NCBI GenBank assembly: GCA_020201525.1
Contig: JAIVGO010000098.1
Location: 1-36,287 of the forward strand
DNA length: 36,287 nt
DNA from: Actinomycetota bacterium
Lineage (GTDB): Bacteria; Actinomycetota; AC-67
Direction: 5' to 3'
In this document: piece by piece, positions 3,414-28,621 of the stretch
How positions within the stretch are numbered: the first letter of the stretch is position 1
How the letters are laid out: every line of letters begins with the position of its first letter
Notes under the pieces: model-generated
Told to the model about the DNA's origin: nothing
What the model saw: only the letters and a program-made list of their open reading frames with translations
Databases searched by the model: none
Made by a program: the position numbers and the translations under genes

Positions 3414-5030
3414 CTAACGCGGTTCGCCCGCCGATTGGCGTTTGCGTTCCGCCCGCCGCTCAGCTTCTAGTCGTTCCAGATCCACGTTCGAAAAGTCCAC
3501 GTACCGCATGAATCCCGCCACCGTTTTGTGACCTGCCACGTCCGCGATCAGCCTGTGCATTTCTTGCGCAATTGCCCGATAGCTTCTGTGTCCTTGGGGA
3601 CTACTGCGCAATTCGATCAAATGCATTGCCTCGCGTGCATTCATTTGCATGACGTATCGGATTTTGTACGCCATGCAAACCGCGTATTGTGACTGATCCG
3701 GCAGGATTGGATATAAGCGATCCCACAACTGCGCCGATTGCGCCATCGCCTCGTCGAACGCTTTCCCAAAGCCGGCTTCGTCCGCTTCCGGCGGCCGGTC
3801 GTATCCGTGTCTCGCCGACAAAGCCTGCCACTGAATGGTGAGCATGCGGTGTCTCTGCAAGTCGCGGAAAGCCGCATAGTCGCTGAGGACGTCGAAGCGG
3901 TAATCGATGCGCTCGAGGCCGCGCCCGGGACGATGCCGGCGATTCTGCCTGTCCCCCACGTAGGCGCGCACGACGCGCATGCGGTCTTCGGCGCTCATTT
4001 TCTTTGCGATTTCCAGCAGCCGGTCGTCGGGCAGGTCGCTGCTGTCGTACAGCATCGCGGCGACGAGCTTTTCCTCCGCGTCCGGATCCCAGTCGGTGAG
4101 CGAAACGGTCGGGACGCCGGCCGGCTTCTCGTCGCCGTCCAAGCCGCCGAGCAGCTCCTCGCTGAGATCCCGCATCCGGTTTTTGGTGTTCGCGAAGTAC
4201 TCCGACCAGACGCCGCCGCGGTCGGGCTGGTCGACCCGCACGAGGAACGCGGGGATCACCGTTCGTAGCTGGGCCAGCATCTTGCTCGCCGTCTCGCGCG
4301 CTTCCGCCAACGGGTCGGACTGCATCTTGAGGAGCATCTGCTCGTAGGACTGACCACTCGCGTAGATGCCGACGTTGCTCACGGTCGCAGCCGGCAACAT
4401 CCCGCGAAGCGCGTCGAGTACTTTCGCCTTGATCGTCGCTTTGTACACGCGATCCGGGTCGTTCGGGTCTTGGGGAAATTCTTTGCCGAACCAGTCGTAT
4501 GTGGGCGCGATTAATGAGGAGTAAATGGAAAAGATGGAATCGAGCGTTTCTTCGTACGCTTCTCCGTGCTCGCTGCGTGCGATGTCGGGGTCTTTGTAAT
4601 AACGCCACCTTCCACCCGGCTTGTCGTCGTAGGCGATGTAGCGCGTGGACTGTTCCAGGTAGCCGGCGAGACGGCCGCGCTCCAAGATTTTCGTCAGGAG
4701 GTTGCTCGCTTGCTCGACTGCTATGTGCGCGCCGCCGAGCTGCGCGACCGAATCATCGCCGTACTCGATGAAGATCCGGTCGTAGAGCTCTGCGGCTTTT
4801 TCCGCACCGGCGGCTGCGCCCTCGGGGAGCGGCTCGCCGCGGTAGAACTCGTCGAGGAAGAGACGTCTGAGAGATTTCGGCGTCCGCGAGTAACGCGCGA
4901 ACAGCGCACCCTTCACGACCTCCGGCAGGTTCGTGAGCGCGAACACTGGGCCTTCGACGTCGGTGAAATACCGTTCGAGAACGGCTCGCTCCTCGAGCGA
5001 GAACTCCTCGACGACGTAGGGATGGGCCAC
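3414..5030 (-). CDS. thyX: Duplicated ThyX-type flavin-dependent thymidylate synthase homologue
   Basis: ThyX makes dTMP from dUMP using FAD, NADPH and methylenetetrahydrofolate. This protein has 538 residues, about twice the usual 220-250, and reads as two tandem ThyX folds. In the N-terminal half the signature RHRX7S appears as RGR-X7-S (residues 118-128) followed by TRY. In the C-terminal half RHR is intact (393-395), but the residue at the Ser position is Ala403. A segment resembling the ThyX NAR...LRS nucleotide-binding region follows the second signature (464-477). The start is a GTG with no good Shine-Dalgarno but with TAGGAT six nt upstream, suggesting a leaderless mRNA. The position between dapA and dapB matches actinobacterial gene order. 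Family membership is firm; whether it is catalytic cannot be read from the sequence. Confidence 0.88.
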   Translation of the reverse strand: MAHPYVVEEFSLEERAVLERYFTDVEGPVFALTNLPEVVKGALFARYSRTPKSLRRLFLDEFYRGEPLPEGAAAGAEKAAELYDRIFIEYGDDSVAQLGGAHIAVEQASNLLTKILERGRLAGYLEQSTRYIAYDDKPGGRWRYYKDPDIARSEHGEAYEETLDSIFSIYSSLIAPTYDWFGKEFPQDPNDPDRVYKATIKAKVLDALRGMLPAATVSNVGIYASGQSYEQMLLKMQSDPLAEARETASKMLAQLRTVIPAFLVRVDQPDRGGVWSEYFANTKNRMRDLSEELLGGLDGDEKPAGVPTVSLTDWDPDAEEKLVAAMLYDSSDLPDDRLLEIAKKMSAEDRMRVVRAYVGDRQNRRHRPGRGLERIDYRFDVLSDYAAFRDLQRHRMLTIQWQALSARHGYDRPPEADEAGFGKAFDEAMAQSAQLWDRLYPILPDQSQYAVCMAYKIRYVMQMNAREAMHLIELRSSPQGHRSYRAIAQEMHRLIADVAGHKTVAGFMRYVDFSNVDLERLEAERRAERKRQSAGEPR

Positions 5031-5036
5031 GGGCGA

Positions 5037-5042
5037 ATCCTA
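5037..5042 (-). promoter_or_regulatory. Putative leaderless -10 element of thyX
   Basis: TAGGAT on the minus strand lies exactly 6 nt before the thyX GTG. No Shine-Dalgarno is present. This spacing is what a -10 box gives when transcription starts at the start codon. No clear -35 is visible. Confidence 0.4.
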
Positions 5043-5181: not shown

Positions 5182-5190
5182 GCTACCATC
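5182..5190 (+). promoter_or_regulatory. Possible -10 region (GCTACCATC) of the kinase-cyclase gene
   Basis: GCTACCATC, containing TACCAT, lies 41 nt before the ATG of the plus-strand signalling gene. The same nonamer occurs upstream of the membrane protein gene (33371-33379) and rpsB (32396-32404), each time oriented toward the gene, and resembles GCTATAATC before rimP. No -35 is evident, so assignment as a promoter is tentative. The remainder of the divergent thyX/kinase spacer (5043-5230) shows nothing else clear. Confidence 0.35.
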
Positions 5191-5230
5191 CTGAGATGCC
5201 GCGTCAACACGAAGCCACGACCCTTTTCCG

Positions 5231-8200
5231 ATGAGCTCCGTCGTCGCGGGGCGTTACGAGATTCTCGAGATAGTCGGGCAGGGAGGGCAGGGCTCGGTTG
5301 CCCGTGCGCTCGACCGACGGCACGATCGCATGGTGGCCCTCAAGAGACGCCCTACGGGGTCGGCCGCCTATCGAGAAACACTGTTGCAGGAAACGCGTCT
5401 CCTTCTGACGGTACGCCCGCATCCCAGCCTTCCGCTCGTCCGTGAGGATTTCTTCTCCGGGCGCTCGTACTACATCGTCAGCGATTGGGTCGATGGGACG
5501 CCGCTGAGCTCCGTCCTACGAGAGCGAGGCGACCCCGGGCTTCCACTCACAACGGTAGTTCGATATCTTTCACAGGTTGCCGACGCTCTTGACCATCTGC
5601 ATTCGCAGGATCCACCGATCATTCACCGCGACGTCAAGCCCGGCAACCTCATCTTGACCGCAGAAGGACGTATCGTTCTTGTGGACTTCGGGATCGCAGA
5701 AGCGAAAGGAAGCGAAGGTGCCCCCACTGGGTCTCGTGGATATGCGCCTCCGGAGCTCACATACGCTGTCATAACACCAGCTGCGGATATCTTCGGTTTC
5801 GCGGCGACGGCGTTCACTTTGCTCACCGGCGAACCTCCGAATCCGGCTGTGCGGTGGGACGACGTTGAGGCACCCGTCGCCAAGGCAATCGAGCGCGCCA
5901 TTCGACCTGGTCTCGCGACGAACCCCGCACGACGGCCGCGAACGGCGTCGACGATCGTGGAAGCGATGCGGGCGTGGCTCGACGCGTCGCCAAGCACCGA
6001 CGTCGTCAATCTCCCAAGCGGCACAGTCACGTTCGTATTCACTGACATAGAAGGCTCGACGCGTTTGATGGAAAAGCTCGGTGAGCGGACATATGCCGAG
6101 GTGCTCAACGAGCATCGCTCGATTATCGAAGCCGCCTTTGAGCGTTGCGGCGGTCGCGTTCTGGAGACCGAAGGCGATGGATCGTTTGCCGTCTTTTCCG
6201 GAGGGACCGACGCCGTCGAAGGCTGCGTCGGCGCACAGCAAGAGTTGGCGTCGCGATCTTGGCCCGAATCGATCTCGTTGGCTGTCCGAATGGGGATTCA
6301 CACCGGTGAGGCCATGCCCGACCGGAACGGCGGATACGTGTCGGCCGCCGTCCACCGCGCGGCGCGCGTTGCGTCGGCGGCCCATGGCGGCCAAGTTCTG
6401 CTCTCGGGAACAACGGCCGAGCTCACAGAGGGACGGTTGCCCGAAATAACTCTTCTCGACTTGGGGGACTATCTCCTAAAAAACTTCGACGAACCGATTC
6501 GCCTTTTCCAGATAGCAGGACCGGGGCTCCGCCGCGATTTCCCACCCCCGCGCGCCCCGGTTTCGGTACGAACCAACCTCACCGAAGACCGCACCAGCTT
6601 CATCGGACGCGCGGCGCAAATCGACGAACTCACGCGACTGCTCACACGCGCACGACTCGTCACGGTCGTTGGTCCTGGCGGCGCAGGGAAGACGCGCCTC
6701 GCAATCCAAACCGCGCGCCGATTGATCGGCTCCCGTCCCGACGGCGTTTGGTTCGTCGACCTCTCGAGGATCACCGACGATGCTCATCTTCCTCGGGCGC
6801 TGGCCGCGGTCTTCGGGCTCCGCGAACGCCCGGGCGCGTCACTCACCGACATCATCGTCGAACACCTCGCAGAGCTAGACCTCCTCATTCTCCTCGACAA
6901 TTGCGAGCACGTCGTCGAAGCCGCTGCCGAGGTCGCGGATGCGTTACTCCGTCGGTGCGCGCGCGTCGGCATGCTCACGACGAGCAGGGAGCCGCTCCTC
7001 CTTGAAGATGAGCGCGTCTGGGCCATCTCTCCGCTGTCGTTGCCGTCCCAGAACGCAGCGAGCGATTCGGAAGCGGTCACGCTATTCGTCGATCGTGCCC
7101 GCATGGCGCGCTCAGATCTTGTGATCGATGACGATGCGCGTACTGCGATCACCGAAATTTGCGAGCGACTCGAAGGGATTCCTTTGGCGCTCGAGCTGGC
7201 CGCCGCGCGCGTGTCCTCGCTGGACGTCCGAGAGATCGCGATTGCGCTGGCAAGCCGTATCGATCTCGGTGCCGGTTTTCGTCGCGGCGGGCCAGTCCGT
7301 CAGAGGACGCTGGAAGCGACGGTTCACTGGAGTTACTCCATGCTCGACGACCGCGAACGGGTCATCCTTCGTCGCCTTGCTGTTCTTCCGGGCGGCTTCA
7401 CGGACAGGACGGCTCGACAACTCTTACCGGAAGAGTCCGATCTCGGGCTGATGGAGTCGCTGACGCGCCGTTCCCTCGTCCAGCATGATCCCATCAAAGC
7501 CCGCTACCGCATGCTGGAGATCATCCGTCAGTTTGGCCTTGAACGGTTGGAGGCGTCCAGCGAGGAACGGGACTCGTTCGCCGCGCTCATTCGCTGGGCG
7601 GTCGACTTCACCGCATCGTTCGACCGCCGTTACCGATCGACCGGTGCAGAGGAGCCGATGGCGGAAGCCGATGAGGAAATCGACAACGTACGAGCCGCTA
7701 TGGACTACGCGCTTTTACTCGACCCGGCCGCGGCATTGGAGATCTGCATCGGCTCAGCGTTCTACTGGCTCGGCCGCGGTCTCTTTCGGGAGGCGACAGA
7801 TCGATTCGCAGCAGCTATCGCGGCGGCGGACGGCGCGCCGTTGCCGCGGCGCGCCATTGCGCGCGTTTATGGCTCGTGGAACTTAACCACGATGGGTCGG
7901 TTCGACGAAAGCGAGGCGATGCTTCAAGAGGCAGTGAAGCTAGCTCGGAGCGGCGGGGACAGCTTTGCGCTCGCACGGGCACTCAACGCTCTTGGGGTAG
8001 TGCAGCACTTGCAAGAGAGGAACGACGCCGCTGAGCCGTACTTGCTCGAGGCACGCACGATCGCATTGGGAACCGACGATGAATTCGCGCTATCTCTTAT
8101 CGATAACTCACTAGGGGAGCATTACTCCGCCATCGGGGATTACGCACGAGCGCTTCCGTATCTCACATCGTCTGTGGAGCGCTCGCGCCGCATTCGGGAT

Positions 8201-8608
8201 TCGAATCTCGCCGCGGCATTGATCGGCCTCGGTCGAGCGCAAATCGCGCGGGGCTCACGAGAGACCGCGCGTTCACTGATCGAAGAGGCATTGACCCTGG
8301 CATCGTCGCTCCGCGACCGCGAACAGGTCGCGCATGCCCTTGAGCTCTGCGCGATGGTCGCAGGAGAATCCGACGCCATGACGGCGGCGGTATTGCTGGG
8401 CGCATCCGAGCAGGTTCTTACAGTTAGTGACGCGGTGCGGTCGTGGAATCCCGCATCGCGCCGACGACTGGATCATGCTCTCGAATCGATGCTGGGCGAG
8501 GCGCGATTTCGGCGCCTTCGACAGGAGGGATCGGCATTGTCGCTGGCCGATGCCGTACAGCGAGCACGGATTCTCATCGCTCAAGCCCCATCTCCGCCGG
8601 CGCCGTAG
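5231..8608 (+). CDS. Ser/Thr kinase - class III cyclase - NB-ARC-like ATPase - TPR fusion protein
   Basis: A 1125-residue cytosolic signalling protein with no membrane segment. Residues 8-250 form a complete Hanks-type kinase: glycine loop GQGGQGS (16-22), Lys38, HRD 132-134 with Lys136 and Asn139, DFG 152-154, and a GSRGYAPPE activation-segment end. Residues 264-430 are a class III cyclase: metal Asp272 in FTDIEGST and Asp316 in EGDGS. The usual substrate Lys before TEGD is Glu312, and the Asn of the VNRAAR motif is His375; Arg379 is kept. Residues 450-760 are an NB-ARC/MalT-like ATPase: Walker A GPGGAGKT (481-488), Walker B LLILLDN, GIPLALE. The rest is helical, TPR-like; I see no C-terminal HTH. 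There is no Shine-Dalgarno before the ATG. It is the only large plus-strand gene in the window and separates dapB from thyX. The target is unknown. Confidence 0.9.
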   Translation: MSSVVAGRYEILEIVGQGGQGSVARALDRRHDRMVALKRRPTGSAAYRETLLQETRLLLTVRPHPSLPLVREDFFSGRSYYIVSDWVDGTPLSSVLRERGDPGLPLTTVVRYLSQVADALDHLHSQDPPIIHRDVKPGNLILTAEGRIVLVDFGIAEAKGSEGAPTGSRGYAPPELTYAVITPAADIFGFAATAFTLLTGEPPNPAVRWDDVEAPVAKAIERAIRPGLATNPARRPRTASTIVEAMRAWLDASPSTDVVNLPSGTVTFVFTDIEGSTRLMEKLGERTYAEVLNEHRSIIEAAFERCGGRVLETEGDGSFAVFSGGTDAVEGCVGAQQELASRSWPESISLAVRMGIHTGEAMPDRNGGYVSAAVHRAARVASAAHGGQVLLSGTTAELTEGRLPEITLLDLGDYLLKNFDEPIRLFQIAGPGLRRDFPPPRAPVSVRTNLTEDRTSFIGRAAQIDELTRLLTRARLVTVVGPGGAGKTRLAIQTARRLIGSRPDGVWFVDLSRITDDAHLPRALAAVFGLRERPGASLTDIIVEHLAELDLLILLDNCEHVVEAAAEVADALLRRCARVGMLTTSREPLLLEDERVWAISPLSLPSQNAASDSEAVTLFVDRARMARSDLVIDDDARTAITEICERLEGIPLALELAAARVSSLDVREIAIALASRIDLGAGFRRGGPVRQRTLEATVHWSYSMLDDRERVILRRLAVLPGGFTDRTARQLLPEESDLGLMESLTRRSLVQHDPIKARYRMLEIIRQFGLERLEASSEERDSFAALIRWAVDFTASFDRRYRSTGAEEPMAEADEEIDNVRAAMDYALLLDPAAALEICIGSAFYWLGRGLFREATDRFAAAIAAADGAPLPRRAIARVYGSWNLTTMGRFDESEAMLQEAVKLARSGGDSFALARALNALGVVQHLQERNDAAEPYLLEARTIALGTDDEFALSLIDNSLGEHYSAIGDYARALPYLTSSVERSRRIRDSNLAAALIGLGRAQIARGSRETARSLIEEALTLASSLRDREQVAHALELCAMVAGESDAMTAAVLLGASEQVLTVSDAVRSWNPASRRRLDHALESMLGEARFRRLRQEGSALSLADAVQRARILIAQAPSPPAP

Positions 8609-8612
8609 AACC

Positions 8613-9404
8613 CTACAGATCCAGCAGATGCTCGAGGCCGTAGGTCACGCCGGGGCGTTTCGCGACTTCCTTGATGGCCAGCAGAACGCCGGGCATGAAC
8701 GACGCGCGGTCGAAGGAGTCGTGGCGAATCGTCAGCAACTGGCCGGGTGAGCCGAGCAGAACCTCTTGATGCGCGACCAAGCCGGAGATGCGCACGGAAT
8801 GGATGCGGATGCCCTCGACGTCCCCTCCGCGGAAGGACGCGTCGCCGCCGGCGACGGGGGCGGCCTCGGCGCGCGCCGCAGCGATCTCGTGCGCGCTTTT
8901 GGCGGCGGTCCCCGACGGCGCATCGGCTTTCTGGTCGTGGTGCAGCTCGATGATCTCAACCGACGGCAAGTAGCGCGCCGCCGTGGCCGCGAACTTCATC
9001 ATCAAAACGGCGCCCGTTGCGAAGTTCGGCGCGATGAAGACGCTCGACTCGCCGCCCTCTTCTTCGATGAGCGCGGCGATCTCATCCAAGTTCTCTTGTG
9101 TGATGCCCGTCGTTCCGACGACGGCATGGACGGCATGCCGGACACACCAGCGAATGTTTTGCATGACGGCCGACGGATGGGTGAAGTCCACCGCAACGTC
9201 CACTTCGGCGTCGGTGAGCGTCTCGAGCTCGTCGGACATCTTGATCTTCGTACCGAGATTGTCCGACCCGACGACCTCGCCGACGGTGCCGTTGTCGCGC
9301 ACTTCCACAGCGGCGACGAGGTGGAGATCCGGATCGGCGAGCACGGCGCGACACACCTCTCGGCCCATCTTGCCCGCGGCCCCGATCACCCCGACCCTGA
9401 TCAC
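8613..9404 (-). CDS. dapB: 4-hydroxy-tetrahydrodipicolinate reductase
   Basis: NAD(P)H-dependent second committed enzyme of diaminopimelate/lysine synthesis. The 263-residue protein has the Rossmann motif GAAGKMG (residues 8-14), the VGTTG loop (96-100), and the catalytic segment ELHHDQKADAPSGT with His155/His156 and Lys159; its length is normal. It follows the M16 peptidase gene by 9 nt on the same strand, so the two are likely co-transcribed. Its 3' end converges on the kinase-cyclase gene with only 4 nt between the stop codons, leaving no room for a conventional terminator. Confidence 0.96.
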   Translation of the reverse strand: MIRVGVIGAAGKMGREVCRAVLADPDLHLVAAVEVRDNGTVGEVVGSDNLGTKIKMSDELETLTDAEVDVAVDFTHPSAVMQNIRWCVRHAVHAVVGTTGITQENLDEIAALIEEEGGESSVFIAPNFATGAVLMMKFAATAARYLPSVEIIELHHDQKADAPSGTAAKSAHEIAAARAEAAPVAGGDASFRGGDVEGIRIHSVRISGLVAHQEVLLGSPGQLLTIRHDSFDRASFMPGVLLAIKEVAKRPGVTYGLEHLLDL

Positions 9405-23326: not shown

Positions 23327-24751
23327 TCAGTACGCCTGGGCCCAGGTCGCGCGCTCGACGGCGGCGGTGCCGCACACGATGCACTCCCCCGCCGGGGGCT
23401 CGGGGTCGAGCGGTAGGTAGCGGATGGTGGCCTTCGTGTCGGCTTTCACCTTCGCCTCGCACTCCGGGTTACCGCACCAGCCGCCGGTGACGAAGCCGCC
23501 GGGGTCGGCGATGAGCGCCGCCAGCTCGCCGTAATCTTTCGCGTCGAACGAGTACTCGTCGCGGAACGCGCTTGCTTGGGCGAAGAGGCTCACTTGGATG
23601 TCCTCGAGCAGCCGCGGAACCCGAGCCGGCACCTCGCCGGTCGGAAGCGTCTGCTTCTCGCCGGTGTCGCGGCGCGCGATCATGACCTGATCCGCTGCGA
23701 TGTCGCGGGGCCCGAGCTCGATACGAAGCGGGACGCCTTTCAGCTCCCACTCGTTGAACTTGTACCCCGGGCGGTGCTCGTCGCGGTCGTCGATGCGCAC
23801 GCGCACACCGGTGAGAGAATCTTTGATCGCACGCGCTTTCGCGACGACGCTTCCTTTTTCATCGTCGTTCTTGTAGATCGGCACGATCACAACTTGATAC
23901 GGCGCGAGTGCGGGAGGCAAACGCAATCCTTTGTCGTCGCCGTGTGTCATGATCGCGCCGCCGACGAGCCGGGTGCTCACACCCCAGGACGTTGCGTACG
24001 CGAATTCGAGATCGCCGCCGCGTCCCTGGAATTGGACGCCGTAGGCCTTGGCGAAGTTCTGGCCGAGATAGTGCGACGTTCCGGCTTGGAGCGCCTTGCG
24101 GTCTCGCATCAGCCCTTCGATCGCCATCGTCTCGACGGCGCCGGCAAAGCGTTCGGCTGCCGTTTTCCGCCCCCGGCGCACCGGAACCGCGAGGACCTTT
24201 TCGACCGCGTCGGCATACACGTCTTCCAGGATCATGCGCGCCTCCGCGATCGCCTCATCCGCCGTTTCGTGCGCCGTATGCCCTTCCTGCCACAGGAACT
24301 CGGTCGTGCGCAGGAAGATGCGTGGGCGAAGCTCCCAGCGAACGACGTTGCACCACTGGTTGTAGAGCAGCGGTAGATCGCGGTAAGACTGAATCCATTT
24401 CGCATATGTGTTCCAAATGATCGTCTCGCTCGTCGGCCGCACGACGAGCGGCTCCTCGAGCTTCTCGCCGCCGGCGTGGGTGACGACTGCCACCTCCGGA
24501 GCGAAACCCTCCACGTGCTCCGCCTCCTTCTCCAGAAGCGAGTACGGGATGAACAGCGGGAAGTAGAGGTTCTGGTGGCCGGTGGCTTTGATGCGATCGT
24601 CGACGGCGCGCTGAATCGCTTCCCAGATCGCAAACCCGTACGGCTTGATGACCATCGTGCCGCGGGCGAGCGAGGTTTCCGCCAGCTCAGCCTGCTTTAC
24701 GACCTCCTGGTACCAGCCGGGAAAGTCTTCGGATTGCTTCGGGAGCGCCAT
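23327..24751 (-). CDS. proS: Prolyl-tRNA synthetase, archaeal/eukaryotic type
   Basis: 474 residues. Class II synthetase core with GTMVIKPYGFAIWE and VRPTSETIIW (motif 2 region), RWELRPRIFLRTTEFLWQEGHTAH, and motif 3 around RLVGGAIMTHGDDKGLRLPP. An anticodon-binding domain and a C-terminal zinc-ribbon-like module (CGNPECEAK near residue 423, CIVCG near 462) follow. No editing INS domain is present. This is the short archaeal/eukaryotic form rather than the approximately 570-residue form of many actinobacteria. The ATG has no Shine-Dalgarno; TATCCT lies 9 nt upstream, so the message may be leaderless. Confidence 0.95.
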   Translation of the reverse strand: MALPKQSEDFPGWYQEVVKQAELAETSLARGTMVIKPYGFAIWEAIQRAVDDRIKATGHQNLYFPLFIPYSLLEKEAEHVEGFAPEVAVVTHAGGEKLEEPLVVRPTSETIIWNTYAKWIQSYRDLPLLYNQWCNVVRWELRPRIFLRTTEFLWQEGHTAHETADEAIAEARMILEDVYADAVEKVLAVPVRRGRKTAAERFAGAVETMAIEGLMRDRKALQAGTSHYLGQNFAKAYGVQFQGRGGDLEFAYATSWGVSTRLVGGAIMTHGDDKGLRLPPALAPYQVVIVPIYKNDDEKGSVVAKARAIKDSLTGVRVRIDDRDEHRPGYKFNEWELKGVPLRIELGPRDIAADQVMIARRDTGEKQTLPTGEVPARVPRLLEDIQVSLFAQASAFRDEYSFDAKDYGELAALIADPGGFVTGGWCGNPECEAKVKADTKATIRYLPLDPEPPAGECIVCGTAAVERATWAQAY

Positions 24752-24785
24752 ACGGCGGCAAGGATACCAACCTGCGGCGGCGGCG

Positions 24786-25151
24786 TTACTTCGTTTCCTT
24801 CACCCACGCGAGGATGCCTTGTGTCGTAAAGGCGCCGGCGAGGTCGTCGCGGAGCTTCTCCATGTTCTTTTTGGTGCGCATCGCACCGATGGCGCCGCCC
24901 ATGTATCCCTTGGACTGGCGCTCGAGCCGGACGATCGCTTGGCCGGCCTCGCCTTGCATCACTTTCACGCCGACCTTGAAATATTGCGCGAGAGCGCCGG
25001 CGACGGCATTCGCGATCTTGTTGCCGCGCTCTGCCGTACCGGTCCATTCGTCGTCCCACTTCACGCGAAACTTGCGGGCTTCCAGCGCTTGCTGCGCTGC
25101 GCTCTTCGCCGACGACGGATCTCCGCTCACTGCGATGTCGACTGCTTGCAC
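24786..25151 (-). CDS. Small conserved-looking protein of unknown function
   Basis: 121 residues from a GTG with GAGGAG about 7 nt upstream. It looks like a compact mixed alpha/beta protein: IAVSGDPSSAKSAAQQALEARKF, a WDDEW acidic/aromatic patch, AGALAQYFKVGVKVMQ, IVRLERQSKGYMGGAIGAMRTKK and a C-terminal helix. It has no signal peptide or membrane helix. Only 15 nt separate it from ispG and 34 nt from proS, so it is probably in their operon. I do not recognise the family. Confidence 0.75.
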   Translation of the reverse strand: MQAVDIAVSGDPSSAKSAAQQALEARKFRVKWDDEWTGTAERGNKIANAVAGALAQYFKVGVKVMQGEAGQAIVRLERQSKGYMGGAIGAMRTKKNMEKLRDDLAGAFTTQGILAWVKETK

Positions 25152-25166
25152 GGATATCTCCTCGGG

Positions 25167-26318
25167 TCAGCTTGAAGGCTTGCGCCCGAGCTGCAGCACG
25201 GGGGCGGCGCCGATGCGGGCCACGACCGGCGCACCGTGCTCGGCGCCGGCGCTCGCGATCTCCGCGGCGAGCTTGTGCGCCTCGAACACGAGCTCGTCGA
25301 CGATCGACTCTTCGGGAACGGTGCGCACGACCTCGCCCTTTACGAAGATCTGGCCTTTTCCTTTGCCGGCGGCGACACCGACGTCGGCCTCGCGCGCTTC
25401 GCCCGGCCCGTTCACGATGCATCCCATGACGGCGACGCGCATCGGCACGTCGATGTCTTTCACGCGCTCCTCGACCGCACTCGCAAGAGCGAACACGTCG
25501 ACTTCCGCGCGCCCGCACGACGGACAGGCGACGAGATCGAACTTCTGCTCGCGTAAATGCAACGCTTCGAGAATCGCGATTCCTGCCTTCACCTCTTCCG
25601 CCGGAGGCGCCGTCAGGGACACGCGGATCGTGTCGCCGATTCCTTCGGCGAGCAGCGTGCCGATTCCGATCGCCGACTTCGTGATGCCCTTCGTCGGCGT
25701 CCCTGCTTCGGTGACGCCGAGGTGCAACGGATAGTCGCACTGCGCGGCGAGCATCCGGTAAGCCTGGATCATCGTCCACGGGTCGTTGTGCTTCACCGAG
25801 ATCTTGATGTCGCCGAAGCCGACGTCTTCTAGAAGCTTGACTTCGTTGAGCGCGGATTCGACCAATGCGGCCGGAACCGGACCCCCGTGCCTTTCGAGGA
25901 TCTGCCTTTCGAGCGAGCCCGCGTTCACGCCGATCCGAATCGGCACGCCGCGCGCGGCGGCCTCGCGACCGATGAGCGCGACCTTGTCGTGCTTCTTCAC
26001 GTTTCCGGGGTTGATGCGGATTCCTTGGCAGCCCGCCTCGAGGGCGGCGATCGCGTACTTCCATTGAAAATGGATGTCGGCGATCACAGGAATCGTGCTC
26101 TTCGAGGCGATCTGGGGCAGCGCGGCGACGTCGTCGGTATCGGGAACGGCCACGCGGACGATGTCGCAGCCGGTCGCCGCGAGCTCGGCGATTTGCTGCA
26201 GCGTGGCGTTGTAATCGGCCGTCTTGGTGATCGTCATGGACTGAACGCTCACCGGGGCGCCGTCGCCGATCTCCACGCGGCCGACGCGAATTCGACGCGA
26301 CTTTCTGCGTTCGATCAC
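25167..26318 (-). CDS. ispG: (E)-4-hydroxy-3-methylbut-2-enyl-diphosphate synthase
   Basis: Penultimate MEP-pathway step, an iron-sulfur enzyme. 383 residues with a TIM-barrel N-terminal domain ([22 protein letters not shown]) and the [4Fe-4S] ligands Cys265 and Cys268 in CPSCGR and Cys300 in [10 protein letters not shown]. The GTG start lacks a clear Shine-Dalgarno; TAAGAT, which includes the rseP stop, lies 6 nt upstream and may be a leaderless -10 element. With dxr two genes away it provides two steps of the same isoprenoid pathway. Confidence 0.97.
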
Positions 26319-26327
26319 GAGCCCATC

Positions 26328-27446
26328 TTAGCCGGGCAGCTGCGGGATCGGCTTCACGATGTCGAGATACAGCGACAATACGAACAGCGTGACGAGCACG
26401 GAGACGACCGTCACTGCGATCGGCATCAATTTCCTCATGTCCACCCGGCGTCGCCGGGCGCTTTCGTACCCGAGGACGGCGAGGTGTCCTCCGTCCAGCG
26501 GAGGAAGCGGCAACAGGTTCGCGACGCCGACGAAGACATTGAATCCGACCACGAGGAAGAACAGCTCGGCAAACTGGCCGCGCTTTGCGAAATCGCCGGC
26601 CGTCCTGCCGATGCCGACGATCGATGTGGGGTCCTTCAGCGTGCGTTTCGTCGAGCCGGTCACTTGCTTGACGATGCGCGTGATCGTCGCCGGTGAAACG
26701 ATCGTGCCGAGCGCTTTCAGCGAGTCCCACGACGTGCCGCCGATGATCTTTCCCGATTCGGGAATCGCGCCGAGGCCGTAGCGCCTGTTGAAGAAGTGCG
26801 TGCTGACCCCGAGGAATCCGACCTTCTCCTTTTCCGGATTCTCCGCCGCGAGGTGTGCCGTCAGTGTCACGGCACGGCTTCCGCGAAGCACGACGAAATG
26901 CAACGTCTTGCCCGGCGAGTCGCGGATGATGTCGCGCGCCTCTTGCCATTGGCGAATCGTTTTTCCTTCGACGCTCAACACTTTGTCGCCCGGTTCGAAG
27001 CCGGCCACCGCCGCCGGCGACGGCTGCCCGTTGTCGAGCTTCTGTTGCACGGATTCGAGCGTCGTCGTGGGGTTCGGCGCGCCGGCGAAAGCGAGCAGCG
27101 CCGCCGCGATCAGGAACGCCACGAGAAAATGCGTGAACGAGCCGGCGACGAGGACGACCGCTTGCTGCCATCCCGGCTTCGCCTTGAAGACGCGATCGCG
27201 GTCCTCCGGCGGTACCTCTTCGAACGGATTCATCCCGGCGATGCGCACGTAGCCGCCGAACGGAAGCGCCGCAACGCCGTATTCCGTCTCGCCTTTGCGC
27301 ACCGACCACAGCGGCGGGCCGAAGCCGATGAAGAAACGCTCGACTTTCATCCCAAACAGCTTCGCCGTTGCGAAGTGACCGAACTCGTGCAACGCGATCG
27401 CAAAGAACAGCGCGAGGATGAAGAAGACCACACCGAATGCGCTCAC
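26328..27446 (-). CDS. rseP: Site-2 protease, RseP/RIP family
   Basis: Membrane zinc protease that cleaves within the membrane, typically anti-sigma factors or signal-peptide remnants. 372 residues: HEFGH at 20-24 in the first membrane helix, a second helix near 95-115, a PDZ domain (about 140-230, AGFEPGDKVLSVEG), and the LPPLDGG segment with Asp318 near the last helices. Start GTG overlaps the dxr stop (GTGA). The dxr-rseP-ispG order is usual in actinobacteria. Confidence 0.95.
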   Translation of the reverse strand: MSAFGVVFFILALFFAIALHEFGHFATAKLFGMKVERFFIGFGPPLWSVRKGETEYGVAALPFGGYVRIAGMNPFEEVPPEDRDRVFKAKPGWQQAVVLVAGSFTHFLVAFLIAAALLAFAGAPNPTTTLESVQQKLDNGQPSPAAVAGFEPGDKVLSVEGKTIRQWQEARDIIRDSPGKTLHFVVLRGSRAVTLTAHLAAENPEKEKVGFLGVSTHFFNRRYGLGAIPESGKIIGGTSWDSLKALGTIVSPATITRIVKQVTGSTKRTLKDPTSIVGIGRTAGDFAKRGQFAELFFLVVGFNVFVGVANLLPLPPLDGGHLAVLGYESARRRRVDMRKLMPIAVTVVSVLVTLFVLSLYLDIVKPIPQLPG

Positions 27447-28621
27447 GCGGCAACCTCACGGGTCCGCGTTCGCGCCCATTCCTCGACACCAAGCACGTCG
27501 TCGAGCTGCGGCTCTTTGACCGGGTCGTGCTCCAGGAGGACCCGCTCGACGACGTCGGTGATGCGCCCGAACGCCAGCCGTTCGTCGAGAAATGCCGCAA
27601 CTGCCTCCTCGTTGGCTGCATTCAACACCGCCGGAGCGGTTCCGCCGCGCCGAACCGCTTCGTACGCGAGGCCCGGCGCGGGAAACGCATTTGTATCGAG
27701 CGGCCCGAAGGACAAGTCGCCGAGGCTCTGCCAGTTGAGAGGCTCCACGCCGTCGGGAAGACGATCCGGCCACGCCAGTGCGACTTGCAAAGGCAAATGC
27801 ATATCGGGGAGCGAGGCTTGCGCGAGACACGAGCCGTCGATGAACTCCGCGATCCCATGCACGATCGATTGCGGGTGCACCACGATGTCGATCCGGTCCA
27901 TCGGCAGCCGGAAAAGATGGTGCGCTTCGATCGCCTCCAAGCCTTTGTTCATGAGCGTCGCTGAGTCGACGCTGATCTTGCGGCCCATGCGCCACGTCGG
28001 ATGCGCCAGGGCGTCGCCGACACTAGCGTGCGCCATGTCGTCGCGGCTGCGACCACGGAAGGGACCGCCCGACGCCGTCAGCAACAAGCGCCGCACGTCC
28101 GCGAGCTTGCCGGCGCCGATGCATTGCCACAAAGCCGAATGCTCGCTGTCCACCGGCAGCAGCCGGTCGAAGTCCTCCCCGACGCGACGCATCACCAAGT
28201 CGCCGCCGGCTACGAGCGATTCCTTATTGGCCAGAGCAACGCTTTTTCCCGCATCGAGCGCGGCGAGCGTCGGGGCAAGCCCGCGCGATCCGACGACGCC
28301 GTTGAGAACGAGGTTTGCATCGGGATGGGACGCGGCCTCGAGCAATCCGCCGGCGCCGTGCAAGAGCTGTGTCCCGCCGGGGACGTCGAAGCGACCGCGT
28401 TCCAGCACGACGATGGAGGGCCGGAACTCGTCGACTTGCGCCGCGAGAACTTCCGCATTGCGCCCGGCCGCGAGCGCGACGACGCGGAAACGATCGGGGT
28501 ACTTCCGGACGACATCGAGAGCCTGCGTGCCGATCGAGCCGGTCGACCCGAGGATCGCCAAGGATTTCACTGCACCATTGTGCCGGACGTTTGTGAGCGG
28601 CGTATGAGATTCGGCGGGCAT
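27443..28621 (-). CDS. dxr: 1-deoxy-D-xylulose-5-phosphate reductoisomerase
   Basis: First committed MEP-pathway enzyme, NADPH- and Mg/Mn-dependent. 392 residues: GSTGSIG Rossmann motif (25-31), ALANKES, the substrate loop TASGGPFRG, NHPTWRMG-like (AHPTWRMGRKISVDSATLMNKGLE), and the C-terminal helical domain. The ATG at 28621 has AAGGGG about 5 nt upstream; a GTG at 28570 matches more homologues but lacks a ribosome site, so the first 17 residues are uncertain. It lies 8 nt after cdsA. Confidence 0.96.
   Translation of the reverse strand: MPAESHTPLTNVRHNGAVKSLAILGSTGSIGTQALDVVRKYPDRFRVVALAAGRNAEVLAAQVDEFRPSIVVLERGRFDVPGGTQLLHGAGGLLEAASHPDANLVLNGVVGSRGLAPTLAALDAGKSVALANKESLVAGGDLVMRRVGEDFDRLLPVDSEHSALWQCIGAGKLADVRRLLLTASGGPFRGRSRDDMAHASVGDALAHPTWRMGRKISVDSATLMNKGLEAIEAHHLFRLPMDRIDIVVHPQSIVHGIAEFIDGSCLAQASLPDMHLPLQVALAWPDRLPDGVEPLNWQSLGDLSFGPLDTNAFPAPGLAYEAVRRGGTAPAVLNAANEEAVAAFLDERLAFGRITDVVERVLLEHDPVKEPQLDDVLGVEEWARTRTREVAA

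Follow-up and report, generated by a model that had tools for sequence, protein, structure and literature searches.

A Hanks kinase-class III cyclase-STAND-TPR protein encoded between dapB and thyX in an Actinomycetota bacterium

STAND proteins are closed when bound to ADP; an inducer at the repeat sensor switches them to an ATP-bound form that is open and oligomerises (PMC4381067). PknK of M. tuberculosis, named as a STAND kinase of the MalT type (PMC4381067), joins a Ser/Thr kinase to such a module, and the Mclx proteins of mycobacteria (Rv0386, Rv1358 and Rv2488c) combine a cyclase with an AAA/NB-ARC ATPase and a LuxR HTH; of these, Rv0386 makes cAMP and has GC side activity (PMC4452763). 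A scaffold of cyclase, ATPase and TPRs that lacks a kinase is common, and many relatives of this kind were found in several phyla, in agreement with the initial annotation, which had called such proteins known. The modules and their pairwise fusions are each known already, from Mclx, PknK and the kinase-less cyclase-STAND-TPR proteins; a published description of the order kinase-cyclase-STAND-repeat was not found in the literature searched, which took in a minority of the subscription papers.

Here, we describe a gene that encodes exactly this order. It lies in a stretch of 36,287 nucleotides from an Actinomycetota bacterium (contig JAIVGO010000098.1 of assembly GCA_020201525.1), referred to below as the window. 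The gene (5231-8608, plus strand) is a complete ORF of 1125 aa with a predicted ATG start, and its coordinates are exactly those of the initial annotation, whose reading of four modules, i.e. an intact Hanks kinase, a class III cyclase, a STAND/NB-ARC ATPase and a TPR region, is borne out by Pfam, motifs and an AlphaFold model. The kinase domain occupies residues 1-252 (5231-5986, plus strand), as judged by alignment, by a Pkinase match at residues 9-211 (1.8e-31, 109.9 bits) and by a complete set of motifs: the Gly loop (16-23), K38, the alphaC glutamate E54, HRD (132-134) and DFG (152-154), with the APE motif present in the form APPE (172-175). A short flexible linker (residues 253-263; 5987-6019), visible in the alignment, leads into the class III cyclase domain (residues 262-437; 6014-6541), which is identified by a Guanylate_cyc match (residues 262-417, 9.3e-9) and by residue alignments.

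The ATPase that follows (residues 445-775; 6563-7555, plus strand) is a MalT/AfsR-like STAND/NB-ARC module. Its AAA_16 and NB-ARC matches, at approximately residues 457-660, are both weak (24.0 bits for NB-ARC against a cut-off of 23.5), and its motifs are located as follows: Walker A (GPGGAGKT, 481-488), Walker B (LLILLDNCE, 551-559), GIPLA (649-653) and a winged helix at about 705-775. Pfam, motifs, AlphaFold and Foldseek together show what characterises a STAND NTPase of the MalT/AfsR type, namely a nucleotide-binding domain with both Walker motifs, a helical domain with GxP, a winged helix and a repeat sensor. The sensor itself is a TPR superhelix of about nine helical hairpins (residues 779-1118; 7565-8584, plus strand), with the strongest TPR_12 match at residues 886-945 (7.8e-19). 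In the full-length AlphaFold model, built with 38 related sequences, four folded modules are seen (mean pLDDT 90, pTM 0.67), the kinase and the cyclase being separated by a clear break of low confidence at residues 255-258 (pLDDT below 50). The best Foldseek match of this model is the STAND-TPR protein 6mfv, followed by the kinase PknI at a TM of about 0.8; 6mfv has the same arrangement of ATPase and TPRs, although it lacks a kinase and a cyclase and is 15% identical. No HTH family was matched in the 1125-aa protein at E<=0.01 by Pfam, and its C terminus is modelled as TPR helices.

How, then, does this protein compare with the described systems? With Mclx it shares a class III cyclase fused to AAA/NB-ARC, which is N-terminal in Mclx, as well as the departure of some members from the canonical cyclase residues; it differs in the kinase ahead of the cyclase, in the C-terminal TPR superhelix and in the HTH, which was not found. 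With PknK it shares the union of a Ser/Thr kinase and a MalT-type STAND module and differs, as judged from the description of PknK, in the cyclase (residues 262-437) placed between the two. The kinase-less cyclase-STAND(-TPR) proteins of Actinomycetota, Chloroflexota, Armatimonadota and Pseudomonadota follow the same order at approximately 33-42% identity over 500-860 residues, but without the kinase. A search for homologues with the same module order, as the initial annotation had proposed, showed that the architecture is rare, although it is not unique: a 1208-aa protein of a sister genus (L194:4772-8398, minus strand, in genome G002) carries all four modules in this order and is 40% identical over 1044 residues. 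This protein, the sole complete four-module relative among the matches listed, is not located at dapB-thyX, and it differs further in its kinase motifs (HGD and DLG), in a cyclase that has the Asn and in having more TPRs. The source genome also holds a 1386-aa frame with the same four module types (L207:9431-13588, minus strand), yet in the order kinase-AAA_16-TPR-cyclase, with a kinase from another clade and a different ATPase family.

The kinase is the distinguishing element. In a kinase tree, it falls into a distinct clade of eight proteins (support 100/100), the other seven being 48-52% identical to it, whereas the remaining kinases of the genome are at about 30%. Across 397 genomes of the phylum, searches that scored the top few candidates per genome, and so give lower bounds, recovered the clade in at least six genomes (eight proteins) and fusions of a clade kinase to a cyclase at least six times, in at least five genomes; the initial annotation's view that the added intact kinase is unusual is therefore upheld. 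The clade was not found in samples of 400 genomes from the phylum of a Chloroflexia MAG (kinase-cyclase profile), 237 from that of a Myxococcota MAG or 201 from that of an Armatimonadetes MAG, all searched with this kinase clade or the kinase-cyclase profile, which would miss fusions that use other kinases.

In all eight proteins the clade kinase is N-terminal, and it precedes a cyclase in six of them and a receiver domain in a seventh. What follows the cyclase varies: a MalT-type STAND module with TPRs in the window protein and its sister-genus relative L194; nSTAND1 with WD40 in another contig of the source genome (C128, L190) and in genome G056 (L191); three AAA_16/TPR sets in a 3305-aa protein of G001 (L192:4124-14041, plus strand); and, in G024 (L193), a STAND module broken off by the contig end. 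At L190:4923-9454 (plus strand), the kinase-cyclase-nSTAND1 ORF overlaps a WD40 ORF downstream that is read in a different frame, possibly because a frameshift splits one gene. The clade kinase preceding a response-regulator receiver is likewise encoded in the source genome, on contig C59 (L258:4788-6269, plus strand; 52% identity), where a LuxR-like HTH region can also be made out by eye. For the eighth member, from G189, no cyclase or STAND match was found nearby. The window protein belongs to what we term the kinase-capped cyclase-STAND group: its N-terminal kinase is of this clade of eight, and a cyclase and then a P-loop ATPase come after it.

One residue sets the window kinase apart within its clade. 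HRD occurs only here, the other seven members having HGD (five) or HQD (two), so that what the clade conserves may be something other than kinase activity. This pattern speaks for a reading in which the kinase is an added regulator, setting the threshold of the STAND module by phosphorylating the chain it belongs to, with no external substrates and with the cyclic nucleotide as the sole output. The constant N-terminal position ahead of varied output and sensor domains fits such a role, as does the very short linker by which the kinase abuts the cyclase; the window kinase itself, however, has its HRD, its DFG and the catalytic Lys all in place, and for this protein we regard the add-on reading as rather unlikely.

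The kinase tree gives no resolution of the order within the clade. On the cyclase tree, monophyly of the six cyclases beside a clade kinase was rejected (AU p=0.003), and with it a single origin of the kinase-cyclase fusion. The cyclase of the window protein is of the VHRAAR type, common to kinase-less proteins, and four of the other five belong to another well-supported group. Since the cyclases beside the clade kinase are not monophyletic, either the modules have been shuffled or the kinase has been added more than once. A single lineage comprising the two four-module proteins, from the window and from G002, was not rejected with either the cyclase (p=0.156) or the ATPase (p=0.66). As a tentative proposal, in which we place somewhat less than even confidence, the lineage-specific kinase clade may serve as an exchangeable N-terminal controller, repeatedly fused to cyclase-STAND sensors (with TPRs, WD40 or multiple AAA_16-TPR sets) and to a receiver protein, and may thereby define a class of oligomerising cyclases, so far undescribed, that are gated by a kinase and give two outputs.

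Whether the cyclase would be active is best approached through its residues. The two metal-binding aspartates, D272 and D316, and the catalytic arginine, R379, are identical in all 149 distinct cyclase domains compared. The canonical Lys/Asp purine pair and the transition-state Asn are replaced by E312, a glycine and H375; in an alignment with Ma1120, E and G sit where the adenine-selecting Lys and Asp stand. Among the 149 relatives the Lys position is variable, and the Asn position is occupied by His in 94 and by Asn in 47. Rv1900c/LipJ, an active cyclase, likewise shows His at the Asn place (AVH; 1ybt alignment). In Ma1120, Ala already stands in place of the Asn in the wild type, and the double mutant K101E/D157G retains its AC activity while its GC activity rises (PMC4215837). 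Given that enzymes with related residue sets can be active all the same (PMC4215837), the missing purine-selecting set makes ordinary adenylyl cyclase activity less likely and leaves the fold assignment untouched.

These same replacements are an argument for a catalytically dead cyclase that serves for nucleotide binding or dimerisation and leaves the kinase as the only real output, as in PknK. A cyclase without the purine-selecting pair and the Asn could indeed be a nucleotide-binding regulatory domain, and allosteric nucleotide binding has been suggested for Mclx2 and Mclx3, in which such residues are missing (PMC4452763). Against loss of catalysis stand the metal aspartates and the arginine, unchanged in 149/149 relatives, and the activity of Ma1120 without the Asn and of its K101E/D157G mutant (PMC4215837), and we hold a dead cyclase to be doubtful, if still worth weighing. 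From the invariant D272, D316 and R379 and the precedents of Ma1120 and Rv1900c/LipJ, a working cyclase of relaxed or GTP-leaning specificity is what we would expect.

The genomic position of the gene is unusual as well. To its left lies thyX in its long form (3414-5030, minus strand; neighbour comparison, TIGR02170), and to its right the convergent dapB (8613-9404, minus strand; TIGR00036, 238 bits), only 4 bp away. The two flanking genes directly adjoin each other, with zero genes and at most about 60 bp between them, in G002, G003, G016, G030 and G044; of the genomes compared, G001, G002 and G003 belong to the same family as the source genome. These five empty sites confirm the initial annotation in that a normally linked pair is split here, and they mark the insertion at dapB/thyX as derived. 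The gene also stands out by its orientation, as had been remarked at the outset: the other conserved window genes examined are all on the minus strand.

In G001, dapB and thyX are found on separate contigs, each beside other genes, so that the junction appears to have been broken independently in that genome. Directly upstream of thyX there, a 5'-truncated integron integrase is encoded (L198:2989-3927, minus strand; TIGR02249, 377 bits, model positions 56-315), and an oxidoreductase-like ORF adjoins dapB (L197:574-1986). Nothing connects the integron to the insertion in the window. Elsewhere in the region, the ThyX of the window is a 538-aa long form in which the TIGR02170 thyX model covers residues 415-499 only, at a score below the cut-off, and the source genome has a second thyX copy (C71:17624-19192), 60% identical. 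The best model for the PNPase of the window is of the guanosine pentaphosphate synthetase type, and a 974-aa ORF at 24697-27621 (minus strand; GC3 0.48), which overlaps other minus-strand ORFs, is probably an out-of-frame shadow rather than a gene.

Upstream of thyX, 6 nt before its GTG start, lies a -10-like box, TAGGAT (5037-5042, minus strand), and similar boxes precede thyX in G001, G002 and G003, pointing to a predicted leaderless promoter belonging to thyX itself. With this box beside its start codon, thyX would not be silenced by the insertion. On the other strand, a possible -10 element, TACCAT, with a 6-nt spacer (5184-5195, plus strand) precedes an ATG at 5196, from which a 12-aa leader ORF, MPRQHEATTLFR (5196-5234, plus strand), might be read. 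Both assignments are speculative, as is the idea that translation of a leader peptide would be coupled to that of the main gene, whose ATG overlaps the TGA of the putative leader (ATGA). A scan for sigma-70 promoters and terminators returned no match.

Where did the inserted gene come from? The initial annotation had taken its A/T-rich third positions as a sign of acquisition. Locally, the observation stands, the GC3 of the gene being 0.685 compared with 0.77-0.85 in the adjacent conserved genes; genome-wide the value is unexceptional, since in 224 genes sampled from about 458 kb of the source genome (mean GC3 0.749, SD 0.07) the gene sits at the 18.8th percentile (z of about -0.9), and an earlier, cruder sample placed it at 21-26%. 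The compositional point is hence true locally but weak, and composition was rejected as strong evidence of foreign origin, given that 18.8% of the sampled genes are equally low or lower.

Recent acquisition of the gene as a unit from another phylum would account for a derived insertion with a GC3 below that of its immediate neighbours. Apart from its ordinary standing in the genome sample, such an origin is opposed by the closest kinases, two of which are encoded in the source genome itself (52% identity for C59 and 50% for C128) and others in sister genera of the same family, and by the absence of the clade from the samples of three other phyla. Nor was a plasmid match for the gene found, and transposition was likewise rejected, the repeats at the gene edges being short, chance-like and unconvincing. 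Transfer across phyla is thus very unlikely in our estimation, and the earlier suggestion of acquisition from outside is not sustained; the insertion at dapB/thyX is plain, and the evidence for a foreign origin is weak. An artefact of assembly or binning might be suspected in a genome of 209 contigs with an estimated contamination of 4.49%. Yet the flanking genes are full-length, in conserved order and on the same contig, the same kinase clade is found twice more in the source genome and also in sister genera, and the composition of the gene is close to that of the genome, leaving this explanation highly improbable. The likeliest course, as we see it, would be that a member of the small lineage-specific kinase clade was placed ahead of a common cyclase-STAND-TPR scaffold and that the gene was inserted at the dapB/thyX point, leaving the promoter-like box of thyX at its own start codon.

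Based on sequence and structure model, we favour, with confidence slightly above even, a STAND switch that acts in the cytosol, is gated by an inducer and signals through two enzymes, by phosphorylation and by a cyclic nucleotide, with a clade kinase ahead of the common cyclase-STAND-TPR scaffold; that the switch is self-contained, as first suggested, is a reasonable inference. A ligand would bind the TPR sensor, upon which the ATPase would exchange ADP for ATP and open, allowing monomers to assemble. Since dimers are the working form of class III cyclases, and Hanks kinases are activated by phosphorylation in trans, such an assembly, by bringing cyclase domains together and letting kinase domains phosphorylate one another, would switch on both enzymes. 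The activated kinase may then phosphorylate the attached cyclase or other targets, and the product, a cyclic nucleotide made with relaxed or GTP-leaning specificity, may find its readers among the 13 cNMP-binding domains matched in the genome, which also has 24 cyclase matches; receivers for the signal would thus be available.

If this model holds true, protein phosphorylation and cyclic nucleotide signalling would be directly linked, through an intact kinase and a plausible cyclase carried by the same STAND platform. The small kinase clade, distributed across different sensors, offers a ready set of proteins in which gating of the cyclase by the kinase could be examined, and the locus would add to the examples of STAND proteins with shuffled modules, here from a little-studied lineage of Actinomycetota.
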